A stretch of DNA of 64,000 nt, from assembly GCF_023516435.1 (NCBI RefSeq), contig NZ_CP097332.1, positions 2,418,001 to 2,482,000 of the forward strand, read 5' to 3'. The notes under the pieces are model-generated. The model saw nothing but the letters and a program-made list of their open reading frames with translations, did no database searches and was not told the DNA's origin. This document shows, in pieces, positions 27,871 through 45,575 of this stretch (position 1 is the stretch's first letter; every line of letters begins with the position of its first letter). The stretch comes from Jatrophihabitans telluris. Lineage in GTDB: Bacteria > Actinomycetota > Actinomycetes > Mycobacteriales > Jatrophihabitantaceae. A program made the position numbers and the translations under genes.

Positions 27871-29904
27871 TTACGGCCAGGTCTTGGCCACCAGGGTGAG
27901 CACGTCGTAGGTCGCGACCGCCTCGCCGGCGGCGTTGGTGACCAGCGCGTCCCAGCGGACCTCGCCGTATTCGGCGCTCGTCCGAGGCGTGATCTGCTTG
28001 ACCGTCAGTGCGACCGCGATGTCGTCGCCGGCCCGGACCGGCGTCAGGAAGCGAAGGTGGTCTACGCCGAAGTTGGCCAGTACCGGCCCCGGATTCGGCT
28101 CGACGAACAGGCCGGCCGCCAGCGAGACCACGAGGTATCCGTGGGCGACGATCCCGCCGAACAGCGGGTTCTTCGTGGCCGCCGCCTCGTCGGTGTGCGC
28201 GTAGAACGTGTCGCCGGTGAAGTCCGCGAAATGCTCGATGTCGGCAAGCGACACGGTGCGTGGGGCCGAGCGAATCGTGTCGCCGATGGCCAGTTCCGCC
28301 AGGGACTTCCGGAAGGGGTGGACGGCCGTTTCGTTCCGGTGCGACCCGGTCGTCCACCGTCCCGTGATCGCGGTCAGCATGTCCGGCGAGGCCTGTATGG
28401 CGCTGCGCTGCATGTGGTGAAGGACACCCCGGATGCCGCCGAGTTCCTCACCACCGCCGGCCCGTCCAGGACCTCCATGGACCAGGACCGGCAGCGGCGA
28501 CCCATGGCCGGTCGACTCGCCGGCGTCGTCGCGGTTCAGCACCAGGATCCGTCCGTGCCAGGGCGCCAGACCGAGTGTGACCTCACGGGCCACCGTCGCG
28601 TCATTGGTGACCAACGAGCCGGCAAGGCTGCCCGATCCCCGAGCGGCCAGGGCGATCGCCTCGTCCACCCCGTTGTAGCCCAGGACGGTGGCGACCGGTC
28701 CGAACGCCTCGATCTCGTGCGGCTCGACGGCACCGCGGGAGGCATGCAACAGGATCGGGGACATGAACGCCCCGGTCTCGGCGTCGCCGTCCACGACGTC
28801 GACAACGTCGGGATCACCGAACACGAGCGTCGCCGAGGCCCGCAGCGTCTGGACGGCCTTGCGGACGTCCTCCCGCTGGTCCAGGCTGGCCAGCGGCCCC
28901 ATCCGGACCCCGTCGCTGAGTGGGTTTCCCACCCGCACCGTGGCGAGTCGGGCCGATACGGCGTCGATGACGGGCCCGACCATGGGCTCCGGGACGATGA
29001 CCCGGCGGATCGCGGTGCACTTCTGGCCGGCCTTGACGGTCATCTCGGTGACGACACCCTTGACGAACAGATCGAACTCGGGGTCGTCGAGGGTTACGTC
29101 GGTGCCGAGGATGGAACAGTTCAACGAGTCCGCCTCGATGCCCAGTTCCACCCCGCCGTGCAGGATCGACGGATGCTGGCGCAGCCGGGCGCCGGTAGCC
29201 GCGGACCCGGTGAACGCGACCGAGTCCTGGACGGTGAGTTCTTCCAGCAAGCCCGCTGGACTGCCACAGAGCAGCTGTAGCGATCCCTCGGGAAGCAGCT
29301 TCGACTCGATGATGCGGCGAACGACGAGCTCGGTCAGGTAGGCCGTCTGGCTGCCGGGTTTGACGATGGTGGGCAGGCCGGCCAGGAAGGCCGGTGCGAG
29401 CTTTTCGAGCATGCCCCACACCGGGAAGTTGAAGGCGTTGATCTGGACCGAGATGCCCGGCCGTGAGGTGTAGACGTGCTGACCGCGGAACGTACCGCCG
29501 CGGCCCAACTGCTCGCTGGCGCCGTCGAGCACCAGGGTGTCGTTGGGCAGCTCACGGGCGGCCTTGGAGGCGTAGGAGAACACCGTGCCGATCCCGCCGT
29601 CGATGTCGACGGCCGAGTCCCTCGCGGTCGCCCCGGTTCGGGCCGACATCGCGTAGAACTCGTCCTTGTGGGTGAGGAGTTCCTTCGCCATCGCCTTGAG
29701 CGCGGCCGCCCGTTCGTGAAAGGTCATGGCTCGCAGCGCAGGGCCGCCGACGTTACGCGCCCAGTCGGTCATCGCCGAAAGGTCGATGCCCGTCGAGGAG
29801 ATCCGCGCAACCTCCTCACCGGTGGCCGCGTCCAGCAGCGGCATTCCCGCGTCGGGGGCGCGGAACCACGATCCGGAGGTGTAGCTCTGCAGCAACTCAC
29901 TCAC
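27871..29904 (-). CDS. paaZ: PaaZ: oxepin-CoA hydrolase / 3-oxo-5,6-dehydrosuberyl-CoA semialdehyde dehydrogenase
   Basis: This 677-residue fusion opens the ring of oxepin-CoA in phenylacetate breakdown and oxidises the resulting aldehyde. The N-terminal ~520 residues are an aldehyde dehydrogenase with NAD site and catalytic Cys in AGQKCTAIRRVIV (~295). The C-terminal part is a MaoC-type hotdog hydratase with DFTGDTFYAHTDEAAA and GIVAHGYLVVSLAAGL. The order and length match E. coli PaaZ. It is divergent from paaABCDE, 100 bp apart, and the gap holds a PaaR-like site. Confidence 0.95.
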   Translation of the reverse strand: MSELLQSYTSGSWFRAPDAGMPLLDAATGEEVARISSTGIDLSAMTDWARNVGGPALRAMTFHERAAALKAMAKELLTHKDEFYAMSARTGATARDSAVDIDGGIGTVFSYASKAARELPNDTLVLDGASEQLGRGGTFRGQHVYTSRPGISVQINAFNFPVWGMLEKLAPAFLAGLPTIVKPGSQTAYLTELVVRRIIESKLLPEGSLQLLCGSPAGLLEELTVQDSVAFTGSAATGARLRQHPSILHGGVELGIEADSLNCSILGTDVTLDDPEFDLFVKGVVTEMTVKAGQKCTAIRRVIVPEPMVGPVIDAVSARLATVRVGNPLSDGVRMGPLASLDQREDVRKAVQTLRASATLVFGDPDVVDVVDGDAETGAFMSPILLHASRGAVEPHEIEAFGPVATVLGYNGVDEAIALAARGSGSLAGSLVTNDATVAREVTLGLAPWHGRILVLNRDDAGESTGHGSPLPVLVHGGPGRAGGGEELGGIRGVLHHMQRSAIQASPDMLTAITGRWTTGSHRNETAVHPFRKSLAELAIGDTIRSAPRTVSLADIEHFADFTGDTFYAHTDEAAATKNPLFGGIVAHGYLVVSLAAGLFVEPNPGPVLANFGVDHLRFLTPVRAGDDIAVALTVKQITPRTSAEYGEVRWDALVTNAAGEAVATYDVLTLVAKTWP

Positions 29905-29954
29905 GAGTCTGCATCCTTTCGTTGCGCGAAGTCGGCGACTCGTGCCACAGTATT

Positions 29955-29972
29955 ACTGAACGAGCGGTCTGT
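29955..29972. promoter_or_regulatory. PaaR-like operator between paaZ and paaA
   Basis: ACTGAACG-AG-CGGTCTGT is an 18-bp imperfect dyad (six of eight arm positions pair) centred in the divergent promoter region. The form ACnGAnCG-N2-CGnTCnGT fits TetR-family PaaR boxes described for actinobacterial paa genes, recalled from general knowledge. No TetR gene is in the window, so the regulator would be encoded elsewhere. Confidence 0.55.
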
Positions 29973-30004
29973 AAATGGTCGACGAACCGACGCTGGGAGG
30001 ACTC

Positions 30005-30967
30005 ATGACAGCCTCGCCCCCGATCTGCGCCGATGACGAGCGCGATCTGCTCGGCCGCTTCGACCGGGTCATCGCCCACAACGACCGGATCGAACCCCGC
30101 GACTGGATGCCGGACAAGTACCGAGCGACCTTGGTGCGCCAGATCGCCCAGCACGCCCACTCCGAGATCATCGGCATGCAGCCGGAGGGCAACTGGATCA
30201 CCCGGGCGCCAAGCTTGCGCCGTAAGGCGATCTTGCTGGCCAAGGTCCAGGACGAAGCCGGCCACGGGCTGTATCTCTACTCCGCCTGCGAGACCCTCGG
30301 TGTCAGCCGGGGTGAACTGACCGCCAAGCTCATCGCCGGTCAGCAGAAGTACTCCTCCATCTTCAACTACCCGACCCTGTCCTACGCCGACGTGGGCACG
30401 ATCGGTTGGCTGGTCGACGGTGCCGCCATCTGCAACCAGGTTCCGCTGTGCCGGACCTCCTACGGCCCCTACGGGCGAGCGATGATCCGCATCTGCAAGG
30501 AGGAATCGTTCCACCAGCGGCAGGGCTACGAACTGCTGTCGACGATGATGCGCGGAACCGAAGCGCAGCGGGCCATGGTGCAGGAGTCGGTGGACCGGTT
30601 CTGGTGGCCGGCTCTGATGATGTTCGGCCCGCCCGATGCGGACTCCCCCAACACGACCCAATCGATGGCCTGGGGCATCAAACGCGACACCAACGACGAG
30701 TTGCGGCAGAAGTTCGTGGACATGTCCGTCCCGCAGGCGGCCGCCCTGGGTGTGACCCTGCCGGATCCGCAATTGACGTGGAACCCCGAACGGGGTCATC
30801 ACGACTTCGGCCAGCCGAATTGGGATGAGTTCACCACGGTGGTCAAGGGCGGCGGACCCTGCAACGCCCAGCGGGTGGCCCACCGCAAGCGAGCACACGA
30901 CGAGGGCGCGTGGGTCCGTGAGGCTGCCACCGCGTTCGCCGCCCGCAACCAGGAACGGTCGAGTTGA
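30005..30967 (+). CDS. paaA: 1,2-phenylacetyl-CoA epoxidase catalytic subunit PaaA
   Basis: This 320-residue di-iron monooxygenase subunit epoxidises the ring of phenylacetyl-CoA in the PaaABCE complex. The ferritin-like iron ligands are seen in [20 protein letters not shown] (ExxH) and [18 protein letters not shown] (ExxH), along with RSQ-type surface residues of the PaaA family. The ATG at 30005 is preferred over an upstream in-frame ATG because GGGAGG lies six to seven bases before it. It starts the paaABCDE operon. Confidence 0.96.
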
Positions 30968-31308
30968 TGGCCGCCGCCGATGGTCAGGGCGCCGTCATCG
31001 CCGCCGGGATCGGCGCCGATCCGGTGCGGGCCGAGTGGCCGCTGTACGAGATTTTCGTTCGCGGCAAACGGGGTCTCAACCACGTCCACGTCGGTTCGTT
31101 GCACGCCGCCGACGACGAGATGGCCCTGCGCCACGCGCGTGATGTCTACACCCGGCGCAATGAGGGAGTCAGCATCTGGGCGGTGCGCGCCGATCTCGTC
31201 GCGGCCTCCAGTCCCGACGAGAAGGACCCGTTGTTCGCTCCCGCCGCGGACAAGGTCTATCGCCACCCGACGTTCTACGCGATCCCCGACGACGTCCCGC
31301 ACATGTGA
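30967..31308 (+). CDS. paaB: Phenylacetyl-CoA epoxidase subunit PaaB
   Basis: The 113-residue PaaB bridges subunits of the epoxidase. EWPLYEIFVRGKRGLNHVHVGSLHAADDEMALRHARDVYTRRNEGVSIWAVRADLV is the family signature. The ATG at 30967 overlaps the paaA stop by one base (TGATG); a TTG at 30964 is possible but less likely. Confidence 0.95.
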   Translation: MAAADGQGAVIAAGIGADPVRAEWPLYEIFVRGKRGLNHVHVGSLHAADDEMALRHARDVYTRRNEGVSIWAVRADLVAASSPDEKDPLFAPAADKVYRHPTFYAIPDDVPHM

Positions 31309-31316
31309 GGACCACC

Positions 31317-32252
31317 ATGAGCCATGTGCACGATCACGATGCCGACCACAGCTCCGTCTACGACGGCCTGACCGGTGGGGACGACTCCCAGTGGGCCTTC
31401 GGTACCGACTTCGAGGACCCGCTGGCCGGAGTGGACACCACCATCGCCGAAGGCGTGGACGCCGCCGCGCTGGCCGCATACTGCCTGATGCTCGGTGACG
31501 ACGCCCTCATCTACTCGCACCGGCTATCCGAGTGGGCCAGCAACGCTCCGGATCTAGAAGAGGACATCGCGCTGGCCAACATCGCCCTGGATCTGCTCGG
31601 CCAGGCCCGGCTGCTGCTGGCCCGGGCTGCCGCCGCCGACGCACGGGTCGTGCCGCCGATGCCGGCCGGCTCCCCCGTGCCCGCCGAGGACGCGCTGGCC
31701 TTCTTCCGGGACGAACCCGCCTTCCGCAACGTCCGTTTCGTCGAGCCCGACAACGGCGATTTCGCCGTCACGATCGTGCGATTGCTGATCTTCGCCACCT
31801 ACCGCCTGGCCCTGTTCGAGCGCTTGACCGGCAGCGCGGATCCGGTGCTGTCGGCGATCGCGGGCAAGGGCGTGAAGGAACTGACCTACCACCGTGATTA
31901 CGCCGGCCGATGGTTCGTCACCCTCGCCCAGGGCACCGTCGAGTCGAGGAGTCGGCTGGAGAGTGCGCTGACGCTGGTGTGGCCCCTGCACGATGAGTTG
32001 TTCCGGAGCCATCCGATCGAGAAGCTGCTTGCGGGCCAGGGGGTTGGCGTTGATCCGGCTGACGCGGCAGCCGAGGTCGACGTGCTGTTGGACCAGGTGC
32101 TGTCCGTCAGCGACCTCGATCGTCCGAGCGTGGCCGCCATGGGACCGGTGAGCAACGGAACCGGGCGCGACGGTCGCCACACCGAGGCTATGGGCCATCT
32201 GCTGGCGCAGCTTCAGGTAGTCGCCCGCGCCCATCCGAACGGCCGGTGGTGA
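31317..32252 (+). CDS. paaC: Phenylacetyl-CoA epoxidase subunit PaaC
   Basis: PaaC is a ferritin-like partner of PaaA that lacks a working iron site in the known complex. This copy of 311 residues contains EEDIALANIALDLLGQARLLLARAA and KELTYHRDYAGRWFVTLAQGT, typical of PaaC. The N-terminus carries an Asp/His-rich segment (HDHDADHSS) before the fold. The ATG at 31317 is chosen for the GTGAGGA site upstream; it follows paaB by eight bases. Confidence 0.94.
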   Translation: MSHVHDHDADHSSVYDGLTGGDDSQWAFGTDFEDPLAGVDTTIAEGVDAAALAAYCLMLGDDALIYSHRLSEWASNAPDLEEDIALANIALDLLGQARLLLARAAAADARVVPPMPAGSPVPAEDALAFFRDEPAFRNVRFVEPDNGDFAVTIVRLLIFATYRLALFERLTGSADPVLSAIAGKGVKELTYHRDYAGRWFVTLAQGTVESRSRLESALTLVWPLHDELFRSHPIEKLLAGQGVGVDPADAAAEVDVLLDQVLSVSDLDRPSVAAMGPVSNGTGRDGRHTEAMGHLLAQLQVVARAHPNGRW

Positions 32253-32258
32253 TCGCCG

Positions 32259-32810
32259 ATGACAACTGTGACGGACCGGACCGAGACGGCACGTGCCCTC
32301 GCGGCACAGGTGCGTGATCCGGAGATGCCCATGCTCACGCTGGAGGATCTCGGCGTGCTGCGCGGCGTCACCGTCTCAGACGCCTGCTCCAGCGGCGGCT
32401 CCGAGGACGTCGGCCCTGACGGCAGCTCGGTGGTCGTCACGATCACCCCGACATACTCGGGTTGTCCGGCGATGGCGACCATGCGCGATGACATCCGGCA
32501 CATCCTGCACGACCACGGCTTCGACGACGTCCGGGTCGCTGTGCAGCTCGAGCCGGCATGGACGACCGACTGGATCACGCCCCGGGGTCGGGCGCGTCTT
32601 GCCGAGCACGGGATCTCCGCCCCCGCGGCGGCGCCGAAGCGGTCCGGACCGATCCCCTTGACGCTGGTCGTGCCCCGGCGGGTTCTCCACTGCCCGCGGT
32701 GCGACTCATCGGAGGTGGAGCTGACGTCGGAGTTCGGACCGACGGCCTGCACGGCGATCTACCGGTGCCGGACCTGTCTGGAACCCTTCCAGCACGTCAA
32801 GGAGATCTGA
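32259..32810 (+). CDS. paaD: PaaD, Fe-S assembly factor for the epoxidase
   Basis: This 183-residue protein has an N-terminal MIP18/SufT-like domain (DPEMPMLTLEDLGVLRGV, then TPTYSGCPAMATMRDDI). The C-terminal Cys-rich tail VLHCPRCDSSEVELTSEFGPTACTAIYRCRTCLEPF carries five cysteines, probably for zinc. In other bacteria PaaD is needed for epoxidase activity, probably for maturing the PaaE iron-sulfur centre. It sits between paaC and paaE with one- to six-base gaps. Confidence 0.93.
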   Translation: MTTVTDRTETARALAAQVRDPEMPMLTLEDLGVLRGVTVSDACSSGGSEDVGPDGSSVVVTITPTYSGCPAMATMRDDIRHILHDHGFDDVRVAVQLEPAWTTDWITPRGRARLAEHGISAPAAAPKRSGPIPLTLVVPRRVLHCPRCDSSEVELTSEFGPTACTAIYRCRTCLEPFQHVKEI

Positions 32811-32811
32811 G

Positions 32812-33891
32812 GTGACCGTGGCGACACCGCGCGGTGCACGGGGGGCCTTCCACGAACTGTCGGTGGCGGCCATCGACCGCCTGACCGAGGACTCGGCCGC
32901 CGTGACCTTCGCGGTTCCCGATGCTCTGCGGGCGGCGTTCGACTTTCGGGCCGGGCAGTCCCTGACCCTGCGGCGAACCCTCGACGGCGTCGAACACCGG
33001 CGGTCGTACTCCATCTGCGCGCCGGCCGGCGCCGCGCCCCGCATCGGGGTCCGCGAGATTCCGGACGGGTTGTTCTCGGCCTGGCTGGTGCGTGGCCTGC
33101 GCGTGGGCGATGTCGTCGAGGTCCAGACCCCCAGCGGGAGCTTCCGCGCCGATCCGACACAGCGGGCCCGGCATCTGTGCATCGCGGCGGGTTCGGGCAT
33201 CACCCCGATGCTCTCGATCGTTTCCTCGGTGCTGGCCGGTTCGGACTCACAGGTCACCCTCCTGTACGGAAACCGCAAGGCCAGTTCGGTGATGTTCGCC
33301 GAGGAACTGGCCGACCTGAAGAACCGTTACGGACCCCGTCTCGATCTCGTGCACGTGCTCTCGCGGGAGCCGCGTGACGTCGAACTGTTCTCCGGGCGTC
33401 TGGACGCCGACCGCCTGCGTCGGCTGCTCACCGCCCTGGTTCCTCTGCAGGCGCTCGATCACGTCTGGCTGTGCGGGCCGTTCGGCCTCATCTCCGATGC
33501 CCGCGCCGTGCTGGCTGAACTCGGTATCGACGTGGACAAGGTCCACTACGAACTGTTCTACGTCGACGAGCCGCCCCCGGAGCTGGCCCGCCCCGACACG
33601 GTCGTGCCGGGCGAGGTCAGCCAGGTGACGATCGTGCTCGACGGGCGCAGCAGCACCGCACCGATGCCCAGGCAACAGACCATCCTGGACGCGGCCTCGG
33701 CGTCCCGATCTGATTTGCCCTTTGCGTGCAAGGGCGGAGTCTGCGGCACCTGCCGGGCCCGGGTCAACCACGGCGAGGTCGACATGCGCCGCAACTATGC
33801 CCTCGACGACGACGAGGTCGCCCGGGGCTTCGTGCTGACCTGCCAGACCCATCCGGTCAGCGACCGGGTCGAGGTCGATTTCGACGCCTGA
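32812..33891 (+). CDS. paaE: PaaE, NADPH-dependent reductase of phenylacetyl-CoA epoxidase
   Basis: This 359-residue reductase passes electrons from NADPH to PaaA. The order is FAD domain (RSYSIC near 62), NAD(P) domain (AGSGITPMLSIV near 125, WLCGPFGL near 222) and a C-terminal plant-type [2Fe-2S] ferredoxin domain with CKGGVCGTCRARV and a fourth Cys in VLTCQTHP. The GTG at 32812 is one base past the paaD stop with GAGATCTGAGG before it. The operon ends here. Confidence 0.95.
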   Translation: MTVATPRGARGAFHELSVAAIDRLTEDSAAVTFAVPDALRAAFDFRAGQSLTLRRTLDGVEHRRSYSICAPAGAAPRIGVREIPDGLFSAWLVRGLRVGDVVEVQTPSGSFRADPTQRARHLCIAAGSGITPMLSIVSSVLAGSDSQVTLLYGNRKASSVMFAEELADLKNRYGPRLDLVHVLSREPRDVELFSGRLDADRLRRLLTALVPLQALDHVWLCGPFGLISDARAVLAELGIDVDKVHYELFYVDEPPPELARPDTVVPGEVSQVTIVLDGRSSTAPMPRQQTILDAASASRSDLPFACKGGVCGTCRARVNHGEVDMRRNYALDDDEVARGFVLTCQTHPVSDRVEVDFDA

Positions 33892-34402: not shown

Positions 34403-34442
34403 GGTCACCGATCGGCTCAGCGGGTCACCGATCGGCTCAGCC
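34403..34442 (-). repeat. 20-bp tandem duplication at the stop of the formate channel gene
   Basis: GGTCACCGATCGGCTCAGCG (34403-34422) is repeated at 34423-34442 with one base changed at the end. The second copy contains the stop codon of the minus-strand channel gene, and a second in-frame TGA lies nine bases after it. Confidence 0.8.
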
Positions 34443-35303
34443 GGCCACCCGTTGTCCCGCGCGCGGCTCGGACTCAGAGCCGGGCCCGGACCCCGCAACC
34501 GGCTTGAGGTACAGGTACCAGTACGCGACGGCGACGAACAGCACGGCGCCGACCGCGTTGCCGACGAAGGCCACGACGAGGTTCGAGACGACATGCCCGA
34601 TCGTCACCCCCGGCACGTGCTGGAACATCGCCAGCGGGAGGAAGAACATGTTGGCCACGACGTGATCGAAGCCCAGCGCGACGAAAGCGGTGATGGGGAA
34701 GACGATGGCCAGGATCTTGCCGCCGATGTCGCGTGCGGACAGGGCCAGCCACACCGCGGCGCAGACCAGCCAGTTGCAGCCCATCGCGCGCAGGAAAACC
34801 TGCTGATCGCTCTCGGTCAGAGCCTTCCCGATGGTGATCGAACTCAGCCGCGCGAAGTTCGCCGCGGCCGGCGTTCCGGCCTTGGACGCCGCGCTGCCGA
34901 TGACGCCGGTCTTGTCGGCCAGCAGGTAGGCCACGAACAGTGAGCCCACCAGATTGCCGACGGTGAGCAGTGCCCAGTTGACTCCGAGCTGAGCCACGGA
35001 CGTGCGACGGCGCAGCACCGCCAGTGGCACCAGCATCATGTTGCCGGTCAACAGCTCCGCCCCTCCGACGATGACGAGGATGAGCCCCAGGCTGAAGACG
35101 AGGCCGGTGACGACGGTCGTGAGGCCGCCCCAGGTCTCGGGTTTGAGCCCGGCGGACGCGACGATCGCCAGCAGGCCGCCGAAGGCGATGTAGGCGCCGG
35201 CCAGGAACGCACCGACGAGCGCACGGCCGGCCGGGAGGGCGGCTTTGGAAGCGCCGGATTCGACCGCGAGGGCCGCAGTCTCGGCAGGTGTGTTGTAGGA
35301 CAA
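34437..35303 (-). CDS. Formate/nitrite transporter (FocA/NirC family)
   Basis: This 288-residue membrane protein has about six helices. The opening SYNTPAETAALAVESGASKAALP and inner segments AGAYIAFGGLLAIVASAG, GGAELLTGNMMLVPLAVL and VVANMFFLPLAM are those of formate-nitrite channels. It likely moves formate for the adjacent formate dehydrogenase. The TTG at 35303 is chosen because AAAGGTGG sits six bases upstream and homology starts at SYNTP; an ATG at 35339 (adding 12 residues) is the alternative. It is divergent from the dehydrogenase operon. Confidence 0.9.
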   Translation of the reverse strand: MSYNTPAETAALAVESGASKAALPAGRALVGAFLAGAYIAFGGLLAIVASAGLKPETWGGLTTVVTGLVFSLGLILVIVGGAELLTGNMMLVPLAVLRRRTSVAQLGVNWALLTVGNLVGSLFVAYLLADKTGVIGSAASKAGTPAAANFARLSSITIGKALTESDQQVFLRAMGCNWLVCAAVWLALSARDIGGKILAIVFPITAFVALGFDHVVANMFFLPLAMFQHVPGVTIGHVVSNLVVAFVGNAVGAVLFVAVAYWYLYLKPVAGSGPGSESEPRAGQRVAG

Positions 35304-35374
35304 GGTTTGCCACCTTTTCGTCCGCTCGTGGGCGTTCATTAGTGAATGCGCCGTTACTACCGTATGGAGCAAAG

Positions 35375-35402
35375 GCGCAATTGCGCAAGGTTGACTGCGC
35401 AA
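35375..35402. promoter_or_regulatory. Inverted TTGCGCA motifs between channel and formate dehydrogenase
   Basis: A perfect 12-bp palindrome GCGCAATTGCGC (35375-35386) overlaps a longer dyad TTGCGCA-N8-TGCGCAA (35381-35402). It lies in the ~180-bp divergent region between the channel and formate dehydrogenase starts. This is a plausible site for a regulator acting on both; the binding protein is unknown. Confidence 0.45.
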
Positions 35403-35480
35403 CGACGTGTCGACGCGGCACGGCTGTCGCAAGTCGGTCGTATGGGCGCTATGGTGCATTGACGCGGCGGGAGGGGACCC

Positions 35481-38400
35481 ATGGACGTGCGCAAGACGGT
35501 GCTCAGCTGGCCGGTACTACGTCAGTTCACCGGCACCGACCCCCTCGGTCGTGGCGAGTCGGTCCGCTCGAAGCACACGGCCGAATGGACGGCGCGCACC
35601 GAGACCGCCGACAAGGTCGTCAAGAGCATCTGTCCCTATTGCGCCGTTGGCTGTGGGCAGCGGGTCTACGTCAAGGACGGCCACGTCGTCCAGATCGAAG
35701 GCGACCCGGATTCCCCCGTGAGCCGCGGCCGGTTGTGCCCGAAGGGCTCGGCCAGCGAGCAACTCGTGAACTCACCCGGTCGCCAGACCGCGATGTTGTA
35801 CCGCCGGCCCCACTCCACCGAGTGGGAATCGCTCGACCTGGAAACCGCGACCGACATGATCGCCGACCGGATCGTGGCCACGCGGGCGCGCACGTGGCAG
35901 GACGCCGACGAGCACGGACACCCGCTTCGACGCACGCTCGGTTTGGCGTCATTGGGCGGGGCGACGCTCGACAACGAAGAGAACTACCTGATCAAGAAAT
36001 TGTTCACGGCCCTGGGCGCCATACAGATCGAAAACCAGGCCCGTATTTGACACAGTGCCACCGTTCCCAGTTTGGGAGCCTCGTTCGGACGTGGCGGCGC
36101 CACCTCCTTCCAGCAGGACCTGCAGAACTCTGACTGCATCGTCATCCAGGGCTCGAACATGGCCGAATGCCATCCGGTCGGGTTCCAGTGGGTGATGGAG
36201 GCCAAGAAGCGCGGCGCCACCGTGATCCACGTCGATCCGCGATTCACGCGCACCTCGGCGGTGGCCGACCAGCACGTGCCGTTGCGCGCGGGCAGCGACA
36301 TCGTCTTCCTCGGCGGCATCATCAACTACATCCTCAGCGAGGAGAAGTACTTCCGCGAGTACGTCGTGGCTTACACCAACGCCGCGACCATCCTTCGCGA
36401 GGACTTCCAGGACACCGAGGATCTGGACGGACTGTTCTCCGGCTACGACGCCGAATCGGCCTCCTACGACCCGACCACCTGGGCCTACAAGGAAGCGCCG
36501 GAGCCGGCTTCGGCCGGTGATCGCGAGCCCAGCCAGCGATCGCACGACTCCCAGTCGGGTAGCGGGTCGGAGGGCGAGAGCCACAGTTCGCAGAAGGAAC
36601 GCAGTGCCGGGCACGAGATGGGCGGCCACGGCGCCCCCTTGGAGCACGCGCGGGTGCACCGCGACGAAACCCTGCAGGATCCGCACTGCGTGCTGCAGGT
36701 GCTCAAGCGTCACTACGCCCGCTACACGCCGGAGATGGTCGAGCAGGCCTGTGGCGTCAGCCCCGAGGACTTCGCCAAGGTCTGCCGCTCGGTGACCGAC
36801 AACAGCGGTCGTGACCGAACGACGGCGTGGGTGTATTCGGTGGGCTGGACGCACCACACAGTCGGCGTTCAGTACATCCGCGGCGCGGCGATCATCCAGC
36901 TGTTGCTGGGCAATATCGGTCGGCCCGGGGGCGGCATCCTCGCCTTGCGCGGGCACGCCAGTATCCAGGGCTCCACCGACATCCCGACCCTGTTCAACCT
37001 GCTGCCGGGCTATCTGCCGATGCCGAAAGCCAGCGAGCACGACGACTTCGAGACCTACCTCAGTTCTATCCACAGCCCCGAGCAGAAGGGCTTCTGGGCC
37101 GACGCCCGGGCCTACACGGTCAGTCTGCTCAAGTCCTACTGGGGTGAGGCGGCGACGGCCGACAACGACTACGCCTTCCATTACCTGCCCAGGCTGACCG
37201 GCGACCACGGAACCTACGCCACGGTGATGGACATGATGGCGGACAAGGTGGAGGGCTATTTCCTGCTCGGGCAGAACCCGGCCGTCGGCTCGGCACACGG
37301 CCGGATGCAGCGCCTGGCCATGTCGCACCTGAAGTGGCTCGTCGTGCGCGACCTCAACATGATCGAGTCGGCGACGTTCTGGAAGGACAGCCCCGAGATC
37401 GCGACAGGCGAACTGCGGACCGAGGACATCGCTACCGAGGTGTTCTTCTTCCCGGCAGCCTCGCACGTGGAGAAGGACGGCACGTTCACCCAGACGCAAC
37501 GCATGTTGCAGTGGCATCACAAGGCCGTCGAGCCGCCGGGTGACTGCCGCAGCGAGCTGCACTTCTTCGTCCACCTCGGGCGCAAGATCCGGCAGCGGCT
37601 GGCGGATTCGCAAGAGGAGCGGGACCGCCCGATCCTGCAGCTGACGTGGGACTACAGCCTCGACGAGCGCGGCGAGCCCTCGGCCGAGGAGGTGCTGGCC
37701 GAGATCAACGGCCGCCACCTGTCCGGTGACAAGGCCGGCACGCTGCTGTCCTCCTACACCGAGATGCGGCCGGATGGATCGACATCGGGCGGCTGCTGGA
37801 TCTACACCGGCGTCTTCGCCGACGGGGTGAACCAGGCCGCGCGGCGCAAGCCGGGCCGTGAGCAGTCCTGGGTGGCGCCCGAATGGGGCTGGGCGTGGCC
37901 GGCCAACCGGCGCACCCTGTACAACCGCGCCTCCGCCGACCCCGACGGCAAACCATGGAGCGAACGCAAGGCCTACGTCTGGTGGGACGAGCAGGCCCAG
38001 AAGTGGACCGGACACGACGTGCCCGACTTCGTGGCCGACAAGGCCCCGTCCTACCGGGCCGAGCCCGGCACCGGCGGCCCTGAGGGGCTGTCCGGCGACG
38101 ACGCCTTCATCATGCAGGCGGACGGAAAGGCGTGGCTGTTCGCTCCGAGCGGACTGCTCGACGGTCCGCTGCCGGCGCACTACGAGCCGAGCGAATCGCC
38201 GATCCGCAACCCCATGTATCAGCAGCAGGCCAACCCCACGCGCGAGGTGTTCCCGCGCGAGGACAACCTGCAGAACCCCTCACCGCCCGAGCCCGGCGCG
38301 GAGGTCTTCCCGTACCTGTTCACGACGTACCGACTGACCGAGCACCACACCGCCGGCGGGATGAGCAGGTGGCTGCCGTACCTGGCCGAACTCCAGCCGG

Positions 38401-38831
38401 AGTTCTTCTGCGAGGTCTCCCCCGCACTGGCGGCCGAGCGGGGACTGCAGCACATGGGCTGGGCGACGATCGTCACCGCGCGCACGGCGATCGAAGCGCG
38501 CGTGATGGTGACCGAACGCGTGACGCCGTTGACCATCAGCGGCAAGATCTTCCACCAGGTCGGGTTGCCGTACCACTGGGGCGTCGGGTCATCGGCCCTC
38601 GTCAGCGGTGACTCGGCCAACGATCTCTTCGGGGTGACCCTGGACCCCAACGTCCACATCCAGGAGAGCAAGGTCGCCTCCTGCGATATCCAGCCCGGAC
38701 GCAGGCCGACCGGACCAGCGTTGCGAACCTACGTCGAGGGTTATCTTCGACGAGCGGGCATCACCATCGCCACCGGCAACACGCATCTGACCGAACGACG
38801 GTCCGGATCAGGAGAACATCCACATGGGTAG
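35481..38831 (+). CDS. fdnG: Selenocysteine-containing formate dehydrogenase catalytic (molybdopterin) subunit
   Basis: This subunit oxidises formate to CO2 at a molybdenum/tungsten-bis-MGD centre. The open frame is interrupted by one TGA at 36048-36050 (codon 190), in frame with both halves. It is flanked by ENQARI and HSATV, matching the Sec site of E. coli FdnG-type enzymes, so the TGA encodes selenocysteine and the product has 1116 residues. The N-terminal [4Fe-4S] motif CPYCAVGCG is near 51, and LCPKGSA follows. There is no twin-arginine signal, so the enzyme probably faces the cytoplasm. A Ser/Gly/His-rich insert lies at ~343-386. The ATG follows GGGAGGGG. It overlaps the Fe-S subunit gene by eight bases. 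Confidence 0.93.
36063..36079 (+). promoter_or_regulatory. SECIS-like hairpin after the selenocysteine codon
   Basis: Thirteen bases after the UGA, GTTCCCA (36063-36069) pairs with TGGGAGC (36073-36079) through a seven-pair stem with one G-U and a GTT loop. Bacterial SECIS elements sit about this far downstream of the Sec codon and are bound by SelB. It also codes for the protein, so conservation in related genomes would confirm it. Confidence 0.6.
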
Positions 38832-39744
38832 CTTGTCCGGTCCGCTGCAGGATCCCGCCGCCGACGCCGGCTGGCAGGATCCTCAGCCGCGTAAGGGTTT
38901 CTTCACCGACACGTCGATCTGCATCGGCTGCAAGGCCTGCGAGGTCGCGTGCAAGGAATGGAACGCCATCCCCGAGGACGGACTGGCCATGCTGGGGTCT
39001 TCCTACGACAACTCCGAGGCGCTCGGCGCCAGCACCTGGCGGCACGTCGCGTTCATCGAACAGCCGGCCCCAGCTGCCGCCCCGGGCTCGGGGCGCGCCA
39101 GCCTGCCGATGCCGACGACCCAACGTCCGGGCGATGCCCTGCCGCCGGAGTCGCGAACGGACTTCCGCTGGCTGATGTCCTCCGACGTATGCAAGCACTG
39201 CACCCACGCCGCCTGCCTGGACGTCTGCCCCACCGGCGCACTGTTCCGCACCGAGTTCGGCACGGTCGTCGTGCAGGACGACGTGTGCAACGGCTGCGGT
39301 TACTGCGTGCCCGCCTGCCCGTTCGGGGTCATCGAGCGCCGGGAGGGCGACGAGCACACCAAGAACGTCGGCATCGCGCAGAAGTGCACGCTCTGCTACG
39401 ACCGGCTCGGCGCGGGATTGACCCCGGCCTGCGCACAAGCGTGCCCGACCGAGTCGATCCAGTTCGGCGACCTCGACGAACTGCGGGAGCGCGCAGCGGC
39501 CCGGGCGGAGACGTTGCGATCGCAGGGGGTCGCCGAAGCGCGCTTGTACGGAGCCAGCCCTGAGGACGGAGTCGGTGGTTCGGGCGCATTGTTCCTGCTG
39601 CTGGACGAGCCCGAGGTCTATGGCCTACCACCCGACCCGGTGGTCAGCACCCGAGATCTGCCGCAGATGTGGAAGCAAGCGGGGATCGCCGCGCTGGGCC
39701 TGCTCGCCGGTGCCGCCGCCACCTTCCTCGGAGGCAGCCGATGA
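38824..39744 (+). CDS. fdnH: Formate dehydrogenase iron-sulfur (electron transfer) subunit
   Basis: The 306-residue protein carries electrons from the catalytic subunit to the membrane. Four Cys clusters are visible: ICIGCKACEVACKEWN (~39), VCKHCTHAACLDVCP (~123), VCNGCGYCVPACPFGVIERR (~154) and KCTLCYDRL...ACAQACP (~187). A C-terminal hydrophobic helix (AGIAALGLLAGAAATFL) anchors it, as in FdnH. It overlaps the catalytic gene by eight bases and the NrfD gene by four. Confidence 0.92.
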   Translation: MGSLSGPLQDPAADAGWQDPQPRKGFFTDTSICIGCKACEVACKEWNAIPEDGLAMLGSSYDNSEALGASTWRHVAFIEQPAPAAAPGSGRASLPMPTTQRPGDALPPESRTDFRWLMSSDVCKHCTHAACLDVCPTGALFRTEFGTVVVQDDVCNGCGYCVPACPFGVIERREGDEHTKNVGIAQKCTLCYDRLGAGLTPACAQACPTESIQFGDLDELRERAAARAETLRSQGVAEARLYGASPEDGVGGSGALFLLLDEPEVYGLPPDPVVSTRDLPQMWKQAGIAALGLLAGAAATFLGGSR

Positions 39745-40787
39745 GTGACCGGACCAAACCTCAAGGGCTTGGCCCACACGAAACTTCCCGGCGGCGTGGC
39801 TCCGGCGGCCGACGCCGCGGCGGCTCGGGCGAGCGCCGCATGGTGCCCGACGCCACGTTCACGTCCTACTACGGTCGGCCGGTGGTCAAGCCGTCCCCGT
39901 GGGAGGCCGACATTCCGGCGTATCTGTTCCTCGGTGGCCTCGCGGGCGGTTCGGCGCTGCTCGGTGCCGGAGGTGATCTGACCGGCCGGCCGGCTCTGCG
40001 TCGCGTCGGCCGGCTGGCCTCGATGGGCGCGATCACCGTCAGCTTCGCCGCGCTCGTGCACGACCTCGGCAAGCCCAGCCGGTTCGTCAACATGCTGCGA
40101 GTGGCCAAGCCGACCTCGCCGATGTCGATGGGTACCTGGCTGCTGAGCGTTTTCGGTCCACTGGCCGCCCTCGCGGGGACGGCGGAGGCGGTCGACGCGA
40201 TGAGGGACAGCCTGCCGCCGTCGCTACAGGGACCGGCGCGGCTGCTCATCCGGCTCAGCCGCCCGGCGGGTATCGCCGGCGCCATCGTCGCGCCCGCGGT
40301 CGCCTCGTACACCGCGGTCCTGCTGGCCGACACCGCGACCCCGACCTGGAACGAAGCCCGCAACGAATTGCCTTATGTCTTCGTAGGGTCGGCCGCGGCC
40401 GCCTCCGGTGGGCTGGCCATGATGCTGACACCCGGCGACCAGGCCGGGCCTGCGCGCCGGCTGGCCGTCGGCGGCGCGCTGACCGACCTGGCCGCTGCGC
40501 ACGTGATGGAAACCAGACTGGGCATGGTCGCCGATCCGCTGCACACGGGTGCGCCGGGCCAGTTGATGCGCGCCAGCAAGACCCTCACCACGCTCGGGGC
40601 CGTAGGTACGCTGCTCGCCGGACGCACTCGGCTGGGCTCGGTGCTGTCGGGAGCATGTCTGGTGGCCGGTTCGGTCTGCACCCGGTTCGGAATCTTCCAC
40701 GCAGGCCAGGAGTCCGCCCGCGACCCCCGCTACACCGTCGTCCCGCAGCGGGAAAGGATCGCTCAAGGCCGGAGCGCAGGAGCCTGA
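39741..40787 (+). CDS. NrfD/PsrC-type membrane subunit of formate dehydrogenase
   Basis: This 348-residue protein has eight or so helices. PSPWEADIPAYLFLGGLAGGSALLGAGGDL and LVHDLGKPSRFVNMLRVAKPTSPMSMGTWLLSVFG are the quinone-site segments of the NrfD/PsrC family. It would take electrons from the Fe-S subunit to menaquinone, replacing the cytochrome b subunit used by FdnGHI. It starts at ATG 39741 in an ATGA overlap. The N-terminal ~35 residues are basic and Arg/Gly-rich. Confidence 0.9.
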   Translation: MSDRTKPQGLGPHETSRRRGSGGRRRGGSGERRMVPDATFTSYYGRPVVKPSPWEADIPAYLFLGGLAGGSALLGAGGDLTGRPALRRVGRLASMGAITVSFAALVHDLGKPSRFVNMLRVAKPTSPMSMGTWLLSVFGPLAALAGTAEAVDAMRDSLPPSLQGPARLLIRLSRPAGIAGAIVAPAVASYTAVLLADTATPTWNEARNELPYVFVGSAAAASGGLAMMLTPGDQAGPARRLAVGGALTDLAAAHVMETRLGMVADPLHTGAPGQLMRASKTLTTLGAVGTLLAGRTRLGSVLSGACLVAGSVCTRFGIFHAGQESARDPRYTVVPQRERIAQGRSAGA

Positions 40788-40797
40788 CGTCGGTCGT

Positions 40798-41784
40798 TCA
40801 GCGGATCTCGATCACGGCAGCTCGTCGCGGTACGAACTCGCCGATCACGCTCGCTGCTGCGACCTCGCCCGCGAGCAGCAATCCCCCGCTGGTCTGCGCA
40901 TCGGCCAGCAGTAACAGCTCATCCTCGTCCACTGACGCCTGCAGGTGCGGCCGCACCCAGTCCAGGTTCCGGCGGGTTCCCCCGCTGACGAAGCCGGCGG
41001 CAAGGGCAGCCCGAGCTCCCTCCAGGTATGGCACCGCAGCGGCGTCGATGACAGCGGTGACGCCCGAAGCCCGGGCCATCTTGTACAGGTGGCCGAGCAA
41101 GCCGAAGCCGGTGACGTCGGTGGCGGCCCGCAAACCCGCCTGCAGCGCCTGATCGCACGCCGTGCGGTTGAGTTCGACCATGGAGGCGATGGCATGGTCG
41201 AAGACTTCACCAGTGCTCTTGTGGCGGTTGTTGAGCACGCCGACGCCCAGCGGCTTGGACAGGCTCAGAGCATCTCCGGCGCGGGCAGAGTCGTTGCGCA
41301 GCAGCCGGTCCGGATGGGCCAGCCCGGTCACCGCCATCCCGTACTTCGGCTCCGGGTCGTCGATGCTGTGACCTCCGGCCACCGGGCAGCCGGCCGCCGC
41401 CGCGACATCCAGCCCGCCGCGCAGCACCTCGCCCAGCACCTCGACCGGGAGCACCTCGCGCGGCCACCCGACCAGGTTGATCGCCGCGACCGGACGACCG
41501 CCCATGGCGTAGACGTCGGACAGCGCGTTGGCCGCAGCGATCCTGCCGAAGTCATAGGGATCATCGACAACAGGGGTGAAGAAGTCCGCCGTCGAGATGA
41601 GCGCGCGCTGGTCGTCCAACCGGATGACCGCCGCATCGTCGCCGTCCGCCAGGCCGACGAGCAGGTCCGGCGAAGGGACGCCGATCAATGCGGACACGAC
41701 GGATTCCAGTTCGCCGGGCGGGATCTTGCAGGCACACCCGCCGCCATGGGCGTACTGGGTCAGGCGGTAGCTCGTCGCGGTCAC
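40798..41784 (-). CDS. selD: Selenide, water dikinase (selenophosphate synthase)
   Basis: SelD makes selenophosphate from selenide and ATP, the selenium donor for Sec-tRNA. The 328-residue protein begins TQYAHGGGCACKIPP, with Cys17 and Lys20 at the same positions as E. coli SelD, so it is the Cys form, not a selenoprotein. The Gly-rich loop ATDVTGFGLLGHLYKMA is also present. It starts at a GTG next to the tRNA-Sec promoter region and is divergent from selC-selA-selB. Confidence 0.95.
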   Translation of the reverse strand: MTATSYRLTQYAHGGGCACKIPPGELESVVSALIGVPSPDLLVGLADGDDAAVIRLDDQRALISTADFFTPVVDDPYDFGRIAAANALSDVYAMGGRPVAAINLVGWPREVLPVEVLGEVLRGGLDVAAAAGCPVAGGHSIDDPEPKYGMAVTGLAHPDRLLRNDSARAGDALSLSKPLGVGVLNNRHKSTGEVFDHAIASMVELNRTACDQALQAGLRAATDVTGFGLLGHLYKMARASGVTAVIDAAAVPYLEGARAALAAGFVSGGTRRNLDWVRPHLQASVDEDELLLLADAQTSGGLLLAGEVAAASVIGEFVPRRAAVIEIR

Positions 41785-41855: not shown

Positions 41856-41948
41856 GGAGGTGTTTAGGTGCCTGGTGGCCCTCCCGGTCTTCAAAACCGG
41901 TGAGGCCGAGTATCTCGGCCTGGCGGGTTCGATTCCCGTCCACCTCCG
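41856..41948 (+). tRNA. selC: tRNA-Sec (anticodon UCA)
   Basis: The acceptor GGAGGTG (41856-41862) pairs perfectly with CACCTCC (41941-41947) and is followed by discriminator G; CCA is not encoded. The anticodon arm is CCGGT-CTTCAAA-ACCGG, with anticodon TCA. The long variable arm GGCCGAG-TAT-CTCGGCC gives a seven-pair hairpin, and the T-arm is GGGTTCGATTCCC. The length (93) and the large variable arm are those of bacterial selenocysteine tRNA. A TACGGT -10-like box lies at 41844-41849. Confidence 0.96.
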
Positions 41949-41986: not shown

Positions 41987-43432
41987 GTGACTCGTCCGCA
42001 CGCTGACCAGCCGGATCCGCGTCGCACCGTGCCCCGAACCGATGCCTTGCTCGCCGCCCCGGCGGTGGTCGCCGCGGTGGCTCGTCTCGGCGCCAGCCGG
42101 GTCAAGCGCGCAGTGACGCAAGCCCAGCAACAGGTGCGCGAAGGCCGGCTCGCACCGCAGGACACCGTCGCGGCGGTCCTCGACGCACTCCCGGTGCGGG
42201 CGAGTTCGCTCACGCCCGTGATCAACGCCACGGGCGTCGTGCTGCACACCAACCTGGGACGCGCGCCGCTGTCGCCGGCCGCGATCGCCGCGCTCGAGTC
42301 GGCGTCGGGGTACGTCGACGTCGAATTCGACCTGGTGGAAGGCCGGCGAGCGCGGCGCGGTGCGGCGGTCCTCGAGGCTCTGGTCGATGCGCTAGTGGCG
42401 GCCCTGCCCGATGAGGTCGACGCCACCGTGCACGAGGGTCTCAGCACCGCGGGAACGACACCGCGCTCCGTGGACGCACTGGTCGTCAACAACGGCGCGG
42501 CCGCTCTCGTGCTGGCGACGACGGCGCTCGCCCAGGGCCGGGAAATACTGGTGAGCAGGGGCGAACTGGTCGAGATCGGTGACGGGTTCCGCCTTCCCGA
42601 CCTGATCGCAAGCACCGGTGCGAGGATCCGGGAGGTCGGAACCACCAATCGCACCACCGATCGGGATTACCTCGACGCCATCGACACGAACACCGCGGCG
42701 ATCCTCAAGGTGCACCCGAGCAACTTCCGCATCGAGGGTTTCACGGCCGGGGTGGAGACCAGCCGACTGGCCGAACTGGGTCTGCCCGTCATCGTCGACA
42801 TCGGCAGCGGGCTGCTGACACCCGATCCGGTACTGCCGGCCGAGCCCGACGTCGCCACAACGCTGCGCGCCGGAGCGACCATCGTCACCTGCAGCGGCGA
42901 CAAGCTGCTCGGTGGACCCCAGGCGGGCCTGCTCCTCGGCGCCGCGGAGTACATCGCCCGGCTGCGACGGCACCCACTGGCCCGCGCGCTGCGGGTCGAC
43001 AAGCTGACGCTTGCCGCGCTGGAGGCGACGCTGACGGGACCGGTGCCGCCAACCGTGCAGTACCTGCATCGCGATCCCGCCGAGCTGCGGCGCCGGTGCG
43101 AGGCCCTTGTCGAGGTTGTCAGCATGTCCAGCGCGGGCGGCATCGTCGGCGCCGAAGTCGTGCCCGCCGATGGCGCGGTCGGCGGCGGGGGCGCGCCCGG
43201 CGTGCTGCTGCCGGGCTGGGCGGTCTCGCTGCCGCAGGCCATCGCCGACCCGCTGCGGCGTGGCGATCCCGCCGTGGTGGGGCGGCTGGAGCGCGGCCGC
43301 TGCCTGATCGACCTGCGCTGCGTCGCAGTCGAGGACGACGACCGGCTGGCCAAGGCCATCCGCGCAGCGCTGGAGGCCACAGCGACAGCAACTGCCGCGA
43401 CCGCTACTGGGACGGCGTCATCGTGCATGTAG
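41987..43432 (+). CDS. selA: L-seryl-tRNA(Sec) selenium transferase
   Basis: SelA converts Ser-tRNA(Sec) to Sec-tRNA(Sec) with selenophosphate and PLP. The 481-residue protein has INATGVVLHTNLGRAPLSPAA near 76, VVNNGAAALVLATTALAQGREILVSRGELVEIGDGFR near 165 and the PLP lysine in CSGDKLLGGPQAGLL (Lys306). The C-terminal ~20 residues are an Ala/Thr run. The GTG start lies 38 bp past tRNA-Sec, so the tRNA and gene may be cotranscribed. Its 3' end overlaps selB by 10 bases. Confidence 0.95.
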   Translation: MTRPHADQPDPRRTVPRTDALLAAPAVVAAVARLGASRVKRAVTQAQQQVREGRLAPQDTVAAVLDALPVRASSLTPVINATGVVLHTNLGRAPLSPAAIAALESASGYVDVEFDLVEGRRARRGAAVLEALVDALVAALPDEVDATVHEGLSTAGTTPRSVDALVVNNGAAALVLATTALAQGREILVSRGELVEIGDGFRLPDLIASTGARIREVGTTNRTTDRDYLDAIDTNTAAILKVHPSNFRIEGFTAGVETSRLAELGLPVIVDIGSGLLTPDPVLPAEPDVATTLRAGATIVTCSGDKLLGGPQAGLLLGAAEYIARLRRHPLARALRVDKLTLAALEATLTGPVPPTVQYLHRDPAELRRRCEALVEVVSMSSAGGIVGAEVVPADGAVGGGGAPGVLLPGWAVSLPQAIADPLRRGDPAVVGRLERGRCLIDLRCVAVEDDDRLAKAIRAALEATATATAATATGTASSCM

Positions 43433-45180
43433 TTGCGGCGGCCGGCCACGTCGACCACGGCAAGTCCACCCTGATCCGGGCCCTGACCGGCATGGAACCC
43501 GACCGCTGGGCCGAGGAACGCCGCCGGGGAATGACCATCGACCTCGGCTATGCGTGGCTCCAGCTCGAGTCCGGGGTTCAGCTGGCCTTCGTCGACGTCC
43601 CCGGACATCAGCGTTTCATCGCGAACATGCTCGCCGGTCTGGGACCTGCGCCGGCCGTGTTGCTGGTGATCGCCGCCGACGAGGGGTGGCGCCGCCAGAC
43701 CGGTGAGCATCTCGACGCGATCCGCGCGCTGGGCATCGAGCACGGCGTGCTGGCTGTGACCCGATCCGATCTGGCCGATCCGCGGCCGGTCATCGACGAC
43801 GCGCATGCCCGCCTGCGTGGAACGGGCTTGCAGGGGCTGGACGCCGTTGCGGTCTCGGGCACCACCGGACAAGGCCTGCCCGAACTGCGACAGGCGTTGG
43901 GGCGGATGGTCGCCGCCTTGCCACAGCCGCGCGTGGACGGCCCGATGCGACTGTGGGTCGATCGCGCCTTCACCATTCGCGGTAGCGGCACCATCGTGAC
44001 CGGGACGCTGGGCGCAGGCCGCATCGTGGAGGGTCAGTCGCTTGAGCTCAACGGCGGACGCGTCCAGGTGCGCGGGCTGCAGGAACTGGGCGTACGGGTC
44101 GCATCAGCGCAAGCCGTGGCCAGGGTCGCGGTGAACCTGCGCGGTGTCGACCGGGACGACGTTCGGCGCGGCGACTGCCTGCTCAGTCCTGGCGATTGGC
44201 GGTGGACGGACTCGGTGGACGTCGCCTTGGACGAGATCCAGGGCGATCTGGCCGGCGAGATCATGGTCCACATCGGGGCAGCGGCGACCTCGGCCCGGCT
44301 GCGCCTGCTCAACCCGGATAGCGCAAGGTTGACCTTGCTCCACCGCCTTCCTCTCCGAGTCGGTGATCGGGCGGTGTTGCGCGATCCTGGGCAACAGGTG
44401 GTGGCCGCCGGTGCGATCGTGGTCGATCCCGATCCCCCGTCGCTCACCCGGCGCGGCGACGCGTCGCTGCGGGGCGCGGTGGTCGCATCGCGGCTGGCCG
44501 GCACCGTGGCCGATCAAGTGCGCCGCCGCGGCGCGATTCGTGAGGCGGACCTGCTCGCCCTCGGCGTGGTTGGGGACCAGGAGAACGGGGTCATGCGTCA
44601 AGGCGAGTGGTTGGTCGACCCCGACCGGTGGGCTGACTGGATCGCGGCCCTCGGCGCCTTCGTCGACGACCACGCTGCCGGCCACCCCCAGCAACCGGGA
44701 ACGCCGGACGAGGCGGCCCGGCGCGCGATCGCGCTGCCCGACCCGGCGTTGCTCGCCCCCCTCGCCGCCGAGATAGGCCTGCGATCGACGGGGGGCCGGT
44801 TGTCCCGGCCCGGCGTCAGGTCGAGCATGGGCCGCGCCGAGGCATCGCTCGCGGCGCTGGAACGCCGCTGGCGCGACAACCCGCTCGACGCTCCGGACCG
44901 CAACGAGCTGGCCGAGCTCGGCCTGGGTCCGCGTGAGATTGCGGCGGCCACCTCGATCGGTCGGGCGCTGCGGCTCGCCACGGACGTGATCGTCTCCCCC
45001 GGCGCGGTCGATCAGGCCACGGCCGAGCTGGGCAAGGTGAGCGGGCCTTTCACCAGTTCCGACGCGCGCCTGCTGCTGGGGGTGTCCCGCCGGGTGGCCA
45101 TACCACTGCTGGAACATCTCGATTCGCTCGGCGTGACAACGCGGATCGACGCGAACCACCGCGTACTGGTGCGCTCGTGA
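43423..45180 (+). CDS. selB: Selenocysteine-specific elongation factor SelB
   Basis: SelB delivers Sec-tRNA to the ribosome at UGA codons next to a SECIS hairpin. The 585-residue protein starts at GTG 43423 in the selA overlap: HVVAAAGHVDHGKSTL is the P-loop (8-15), DVPGHQRF the G3 motif and VTRSD the NKxD-type G4 motif (TRSD). Translation-factor barrels follow, then C-terminal winged helices that read SECIS. The length is usual for SelB. A rhodanese gene follows with a four-base overlap. Confidence 0.94.
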   Translation: MHVVAAAGHVDHGKSTLIRALTGMEPDRWAEERRRGMTIDLGYAWLQLESGVQLAFVDVPGHQRFIANMLAGLGPAPAVLLVIAADEGWRRQTGEHLDAIRALGIEHGVLAVTRSDLADPRPVIDDAHARLRGTGLQGLDAVAVSGTTGQGLPELRQALGRMVAALPQPRVDGPMRLWVDRAFTIRGSGTIVTGTLGAGRIVEGQSLELNGGRVQVRGLQELGVRVASAQAVARVAVNLRGVDRDDVRRGDCLLSPGDWRWTDSVDVALDEIQGDLAGEIMVHIGAAATSARLRLLNPDSARLTLLHRLPLRVGDRAVLRDPGQQVVAAGAIVVDPDPPSLTRRGDASLRGAVVASRLAGTVADQVRRRGAIREADLLALGVVGDQENGVMRQGEWLVDPDRWADWIAALGAFVDDHAAGHPQQPGTPDEAARRAIALPDPALLAPLAAEIGLRSTGGRLSRPGVRSSMGRAEASLAALERRWRDNPLDAPDRNELAELGLGPREIAAATSIGRALRLATDVIVSPGAVDQATAELGKVSGPFTSSDARLLLGVSRRVAIPLLEHLDSLGVTTRIDANHRVLVRS

Positions 45181-45575
45181 GCGGGGCCGAGATCGATCTG
45201 CGCCTGGACGAGGCCCGGCAGGGTTGGTGCCGCCTCAGTCCGGTCGAGGCGGTGCACGCTCAGGCCGGCGGAGCGCTGCTGATCGACACTCGTACCGAAT
45301 GGCAACGGCTGTTCCAGGGCGAACTGCCCGGGGCGATCGTCATCGACCGGACCGTCCTGGAGTGGCGACTGGACCCCGGCTGCTCCTCGCGAATTCCCGA
45401 GGCGATCGAGGGAATGCGCGTCGTGGTCGTCTGTCGCCAGGGGTTCAGTTCCAGCTTGGCCGTAGCGAGCCTGCGTTCGTTGGGAATCGACGCATCCGAT
45501 GTCGTGGGCGGTGCCGAAGCCTGGATCGACGCTGGGCTGCCGGTGCACGCCGGCTCCGCCGACGTCCGCCGCTAG
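45177..45575 (+). CDS. Single-domain rhodanese coupled to selB
   Basis: The 132-residue protein is one rhodanese domain: VEAVHAQAGGALLIDTRTEWQRLFQGELPGAIVI near 23 and the active loop VVVCRQGFSSSLA near 82, with the catalytic Cys. It lacks the second domain of the tRNA selenouridine synthase SelU. The GTGA overlap with the selB stop suggests cotranslation, so a job in handling sulfur or selenium for selenoprotein synthesis is likely but unproven. Confidence 0.88.
   Translation: MSGAEIDLRLDEARQGWCRLSPVEAVHAQAGGALLIDTRTEWQRLFQGELPGAIVIDRTVLEWRLDPGCSSRIPEAIEGMRVVVVCRQGFSSSLAVASLRSLGIDASDVVGGAEAWIDAGLPVHAGSADVRR

Follow-up and report, generated by a model that had tools for sequence, protein, structure and literature searches.

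How does a bacterium make a formate dehydrogenase if the gene carries a stop codon well inside its reading frame? The window that we analyzed, a stretch of 64,000 nucleotides from Jatrophihabitans telluris, contains such a gene (fdhA, 35481..38831, forward strand), and we are nearly certain of the answer: fdhA encodes a molybdenum- or tungsten-dependent bis-MGD formate dehydrogenase (FDH), its residue 190 is selenocysteine (Sec), inserted by way of SelB and a SECIS element, and the protein works with the subunits FdhB and FdhC. The open frame, the position of the codon, the covariation of the hairpin, and the complete set of genes are observed. From homology, we infer the binding of SelB, the metal, the path of the electrons, and a cytoplasmic orientation, the last because we saw no twin-arginine motif, by eye, at the N terminus of FdhA. 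An initial annotation of this DNA had already proposed that the UGA is read as Sec, and homology, codon position, covariation of the SECIS, the set of sel genes, and the selenium dependence of a relative all agree with that proposal.

The frame of fdhA and the genes for decoding Sec

The sole internal stop in the frame is a TGA at codon 190 (36048..36050, forward strand), in the context QARI-U-HSATVPSLG, and the product with U190 has 1116 amino acids before the final stop. It matches NCBIfam NF041513 (formate_DH_Act) at 1980 bits (cut-off 1400) and TIGR01553 (formate dehydrogenase-N alpha) at 957 bits (cut-off 814), and it can be aligned with the structures 1h0h and 1kqf. Residue 190 aligns to the X that represents the modified active-site residue of 1h0h, and E. 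coli fdnG, fdoG, and fdhF have TGA at the equivalent codon. Thus the frame, the alignment to 1h0h, and the homologs confirm that the TGA is in frame and at the Sec position of FdnG-type enzymes, as had been claimed. The initial annotation also expected gene callers to split the gene, which is only partly right: naive use of table 11 does give two open reading frames, of 189 amino acids (35481-36050) and 919 amino acids (36072-38831), and so loses the catalytic subunit of a formate-oxidizing complex, but the NCBI pipeline annotated the homolog on a plasmid of Arthrobacter sp. YA7-1 as a single coding sequence of 1,110 residues that spans the TGA. In the source genome (4.19 Mb, a single contig), this gene with its one internal TGA was the sole FDH match, so we rejected the idea of a second Sec-FDH. 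We also note that FdhA has an insert of ~50 residues (residues ~339-388; 36495-36644), in which Ser, Gly, Glu, and His are frequent and which is missing from the D. gigas enzyme (1h0h).

We collected homologs from 80 named contigs, from 61 related genomes, and from an order-wide search that was seeded with a Cys homolog. Of 133 distinct actinobacterial sequences across codon 190, 114 have TGA, 12 have TAG, 7 have TGC or TGT, and none has anything else. The 126 genes with a stop codon (the L002-L159 set) span dozens of genera. In a tree built with FastTree, a fast method on which our tree-based tests rest, the Cys forms and the TAG forms each lie on one side of a branch. The TAG forms are from Modestobacter, Geodermatophilus, and related genomes (L013, L014, L015, L018, L019, L025, L031, L101, L110, L113, L133, L143, and others). 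A Sec system that decodes UAG in Geodermatophilaceae has already been published, according to passages of PMC5330540 that cite an earlier report. Its FdhA is orthologous and its hairpin has the identical form, but it uses UAG and a tRNA-Sec with the anticodon CUA (as given in those passages of PMC5330540), whereas the window has UGA and the anticodon UCA.

A full set of genes for decoding Sec lies 2-6 kb downstream of fdhA: selD (40798..41784, reverse strand), which is the Cys form of selenide, water dikinase (TIGR00476, 406 bits, cut-off 125); selC (41856..41947, forward strand), which is tRNA-Sec with the anticodon UCA (RF01852, 79.6 bits; tRNA-SeC (tca) according to ARAGORN); selA (41987..43432, forward strand), L-seryl-tRNA(Sec) selenium transferase (TIGR00474, 405 bits, cut-off 268); and selB (43411..45180, forward strand), the Sec-specific elongation factor (TIGR00475, 287 bits, cut-off 242). 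The initial annotation had placed selD, selA, and selB correctly but overlooked the tRNA-Sec. This tRNA is the only true one of its kind in the genome, as a second candidate at 335637 (48 bits) is actually a tRNA-Ser. There is also an fdhD match elsewhere in the genome, at its cut-off.

By a hand tally of the 61 relatives, tRNA-Sec was found in every genome that is at least 90% complete and has a stop-form gene. The gene was present without tRNA-Sec only in incomplete genomes (G005, 63%, and G035, 82%). One congener (G007, 85% complete) has a Cys form and gave no match to tRNA-Sec or SelB. Its FdhA (L118, on G007:C182) is only 64% identical to FdhA from the window and falls within the Cys clade, which marks it as a separate gene copy and not an in-place change from Sec to Cys.

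Every part of this system accords with the established biology of Sec, in which SelD, SelA, tRNA-Sec, and SelB serve a UGA that is controlled by a SECIS. SelD would make selenophosphate, SelA would convert Ser-tRNA-Sec to Sec-tRNA-Sec, and SelB would bring Sec-tRNA-Sec to the UGA at 36048-36050 because it would bind the SECIS at 36063-36079. Without this delivery, RF2 would terminate the chain at residue 189. The completed FdhA, together with FdhB and FdhC, would oxidize formate and pass the electrons to the quinone pool.

The hairpin downstream of the UGA

The hairpin (36063..36079, forward strand) starts 12 nt after the TGA and has a stem of 6 bp (GTTCCC/GGGAGC) and the loop AGTTT. Folded as a single sequence, it is no more stable than shuffles (z -0.10), which implies that one fold alone is no proof of a hairpin, and we dropped this test in favor of comparative ones. 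Counting both strands of the window (127,966 positions), we found two instances of this form (6 bp, a 5-nt loop that begins with RGU, and a TGA 15 nt upstream), and the second one, at 46396, is antisense within an unrelated gene.

Across the homologs, the consensus of the stem is G-U-Y-C-C-C / G-G-G-R-R-C. Because the stem is under codon constraint, it is the synonymous changes that carry information. The third positions of Val codon 195 and Gly codon 199 (pair 17-29) covary, and both are synonymous: the 126 Sec genes have CG (83), TA (27), TG (10), GT (3), or GC (2), with one mismatch, and the two positions pair in one of the seven Cys homologs. There are at least 25 changes in this pair on the FastTree tree, with C-to-U accompanying G-to-A and almost never the reverse. 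Among independent contrasts in which both sides differ, an average of 7.5 went the same way versus 0.0 (median p = 0.016, sign test). Similarly, in an alignment of 52 sequences, 99.7% of stem cells are paired, versus 33-70% if the partner is slid by 1-3 columns.

The choice of codons within the hairpin is also constrained. Pro 196 is CCC in all of the Sec genes (126/126) versus 27% elsewhere, and the loop codon 197 is GGT or AGT in 126/126. The seven Cys homologs have neither this codon pattern nor the hairpin, and the mean probability of the hairpin is 0.69 in the Sec genes and about 0 in the Cys genes. The family is thus a natural test of Sec recoding in high-GC Actinobacteria: one hairpin is common to 126 Sec genes, including 12 with UAG, and is missing from 7 Cys genes. 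Covariation in relatives was the check that the initial annotation had put forward for this hairpin, and the compensatory synonymous changes bear it out, as does the absence of the hairpin from the Cys forms. Judging from these comparative data, the hairpin at 36063-36079 is beyond reasonable doubt, and we consider this to be strong evidence for a working SECIS. We do not claim a longer stem: for the outer pairs that were proposed by alifold (columns 10-15 with 65-71), compensatory changes are missing.

These comparisons also bear on other ways to account for the UGA. The codon might be a switch, so that the 189-residue product has a function of its own and the full-length protein is made only if selenium is plentiful. 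Some truncated product is expected from any Sec codon, and the efficiency of Sec recoding in E. coli is 30-40% in vivo according to a passage of PMC4513850. But the 189-residue fragment would stop short of the Sec residue and of most of the molybdopterin domain, we see no sign of an independent function, and a dependence on selenium is an ordinary consequence of decoding Sec, so we view a switch as very unlikely. It is highly improbable that the UGA is decoded by an ordinary tRNA (such as tRNA-Trp) or is a sense codon in this bacterium: low-level readthrough of UGA is generally known to occur in bacteria, but no computed result favors it, there is a dedicated tRNA-Sec with selA, selB, and selD just 2-6 kb away, Cys is the only replacement for the stop among the homologs, and the neighboring genes are normal under table 11. 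Finally, although a lone in-frame stop would look the same in one genome if a nonsense mutation or a sequencing error had interrupted a Cys-type enzyme, comparative data have already refuted such a pseudogene and leave it practically no chance, as the stop is at the identical codon in 126 distinct homologs from dozens of genera, the remainder is intact over 1116 codons, and selection on synonymous sites maintains the hairpin.

The codon before the Sec codon

Besides the SECIS, the genes that we read as encoding Sec share a second signature, which we had not expected. In fdhA, the Sec codon is directly preceded by ATT (Ile; 36045..36047, forward strand), and a codon that ends in U or A is conserved at this -1 position: across the 126 Sec genes, we found ATT (98), ATA (22), GTT (5), and ATC (1), or 125/126 ending in U or A. 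This holds across ~60 genus-level groups, with L005 as the sole exception. Elsewhere in these genes, 96.4% of Ile codons are ATC and just 3.6% end in U or A. Among 17 conserved Ile columns, the -1 column is 99% ATT or ATA and the runner-up is 10%; and if 1046 columns are ranked by the fraction of codons that end in A or U, the -1 codon is second, behind the loop codon of the SECIS. All 12 of the distinct UAG genes have ATA. In the Actinomadura and Streptomyces genes with Val at this position, the codon is GTT, which elsewhere accounts for only 1.4% of Val codons; the third base is thus retained despite the change of amino acid. The Cys homologs of FdhA have GTG or GTC at the corresponding position. 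In Proteobacteria, GTC precedes the Sec codon in E. coli fdnG, fdoG, and fdhF and in six genes from rhizobial, Paracoccus, Roseomonas, and Burkholderia-group plasmids.

A distant family of cytoplasmic FDHs shows the signature as well and is an independent case of it. All three of its Sec members (L175-L177) have ACT before the TGA, and these are the only ACT among the 122 Thr codons that we counted in those genes. Of the seven nearest Cys members, six carry ACC or ACG at this position. The seventh (L184; G004:C265:6844-8673), which is from the same genus as the window, encodes Cys yet has ACT, a GGT loop codon, and a sequence that can form the hairpin; it is probably a recent conversion from Sec to Cys with a fossil SECIS.

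What might the base before the Sec codon do? In folding calculations, placing a C or G there reduced the mean probability of an unpaired UGA from ~0.64 to 0.47 and affected the hairpin little or only modestly, so keeping the UGA open in a GC-rich mRNA is one candidate role. Alternatively, the wobble pair of the tRNA in the P site might influence the competition with release factor. These patterns in the sequences suggest an upstream recoding context that would be specific to Actinobacteria, and we lean slightly towards the view that Sec recoding in these bacteria requires a U or A directly 5' of the Sec codon as well as a SECIS. The putative rule would cover AUU, AUA, and GUU in the membrane FdhA, ACU in the cytoplasmic FdhA, and AUA before UAG, and it could act via pairing in the P site. 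We found no description of it in the open-access reviews and papers that we searched, which cite the downstream nucleotide and the SECIS. If the rule is functional, it would add a determinant to a recoding mechanism that is known mostly from E. coli, and it would aid the prediction of selenoproteins and the expression of Sec proteins in actinobacterial hosts.

The complex, its neighbors, and similar systems

Downstream of fdhA, fdhB (38824..39744, forward strand) encodes an electron-transfer subunit of the 4Fe-4S ferredoxin type (TIGR01582, 171 bits, below the cut-off of 335) and is present in 72 of the 80 loci searched. It is followed by fdhC (39741..40787, forward strand), an NrfD-like membrane anchor with a weak match to TIGR03148 (NrfD); the Arthrobacter gene at the equivalent position is annotated as NrfD/PsrC. 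A transporter of the FNT (formate/nitrite) family (34437..35459, reverse strand; TIGR00790, 215 bits, cut-off 232; start codon uncertain) is divergent from fdhA. It is adjacent in few relatives (L057 and L093), so we rejected the idea that it is a constant component. The scores below the cut-offs of TIGR01582 and TIGR00790 fit a divergent actinobacterial subgroup.

An experimental precedent is Actinomycetospora chiangmaiensis. Among its three Sec-FDHs are membrane-bound ones of the window's kind; formate accumulated without selenite and was almost gone with selenite, and FDH expression depended on selenium (PMC7176365). In strain DSM 45062, Sec-FDH1 and FDH2 have similar membrane-bound alpha subunits (1078 and 1089 amino acids) with beta and gamma subunits, and the FDH1 cluster lists selA and selB, as in the window. 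On the other hand, selD is listed outside of that cluster and the adjacent transporter is called no more than a permease (PMC7176365), while the window has both selD and tRNA-Sec inside and a transporter of the FNT family. Corynebacterium aurimucosum ATCC 700975 has a UGA-containing fdnG together with fdxH, selD, selA, selB, and selC, but it belongs to another actinobacterial lineage and differs in gene details, and its system was predicted from sequence only (PMC2830990). Streptomyces incarnatus has a similar FDH-sel cluster (PMC4498112). Given these precedents and the NCBIfam model, FdhA is an unremarkable member of an established group: a standard selenoprotein, in an arrangement that is already known in such bacteria.

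The better-known FdnGHI of E. coli (1kqf) also has Sec at the homologous residue, a SECIS just downstream, and a ferredoxin-like beta subunit, and the alpha subunits are ~44% identical around the Sec site. But the window has an NrfD-like anchor, the insert at residues ~339-388, and ATT instead of GTC at -1. The E. coli type of FDH-N complex is periplasmic, with a Tat signal, and has an FdnI-type cytochrome b; here, no twin-arginine motif is evident by eye at the N terminus of FdhA, and the third subunit is NrfD-like. The window's enzyme is a homolog of E. coli FDH-N in another type of complex.

Two further observations concern the surroundings. A small open reading frame with a rhodanese domain (45177..45575, forward strand) overlaps the stop codon of selB, has weak partial matches to the MoeB-family models PRK08762 and PRK07411, and contains CRQGFSS, which resembles an active site. 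It is only a guess that it might be a carrier of selenium or sulfur; as it is in just 2 of the 49 long related loci, a conserved role in selenium metabolism was not upheld. It also lies upstream of fdhA in a congener (L091). On the other side, judging from translations of open reading frames only, genes for the degradation of phenylacetate (paa, 27871-33891) adjoin the FDH-sel region.
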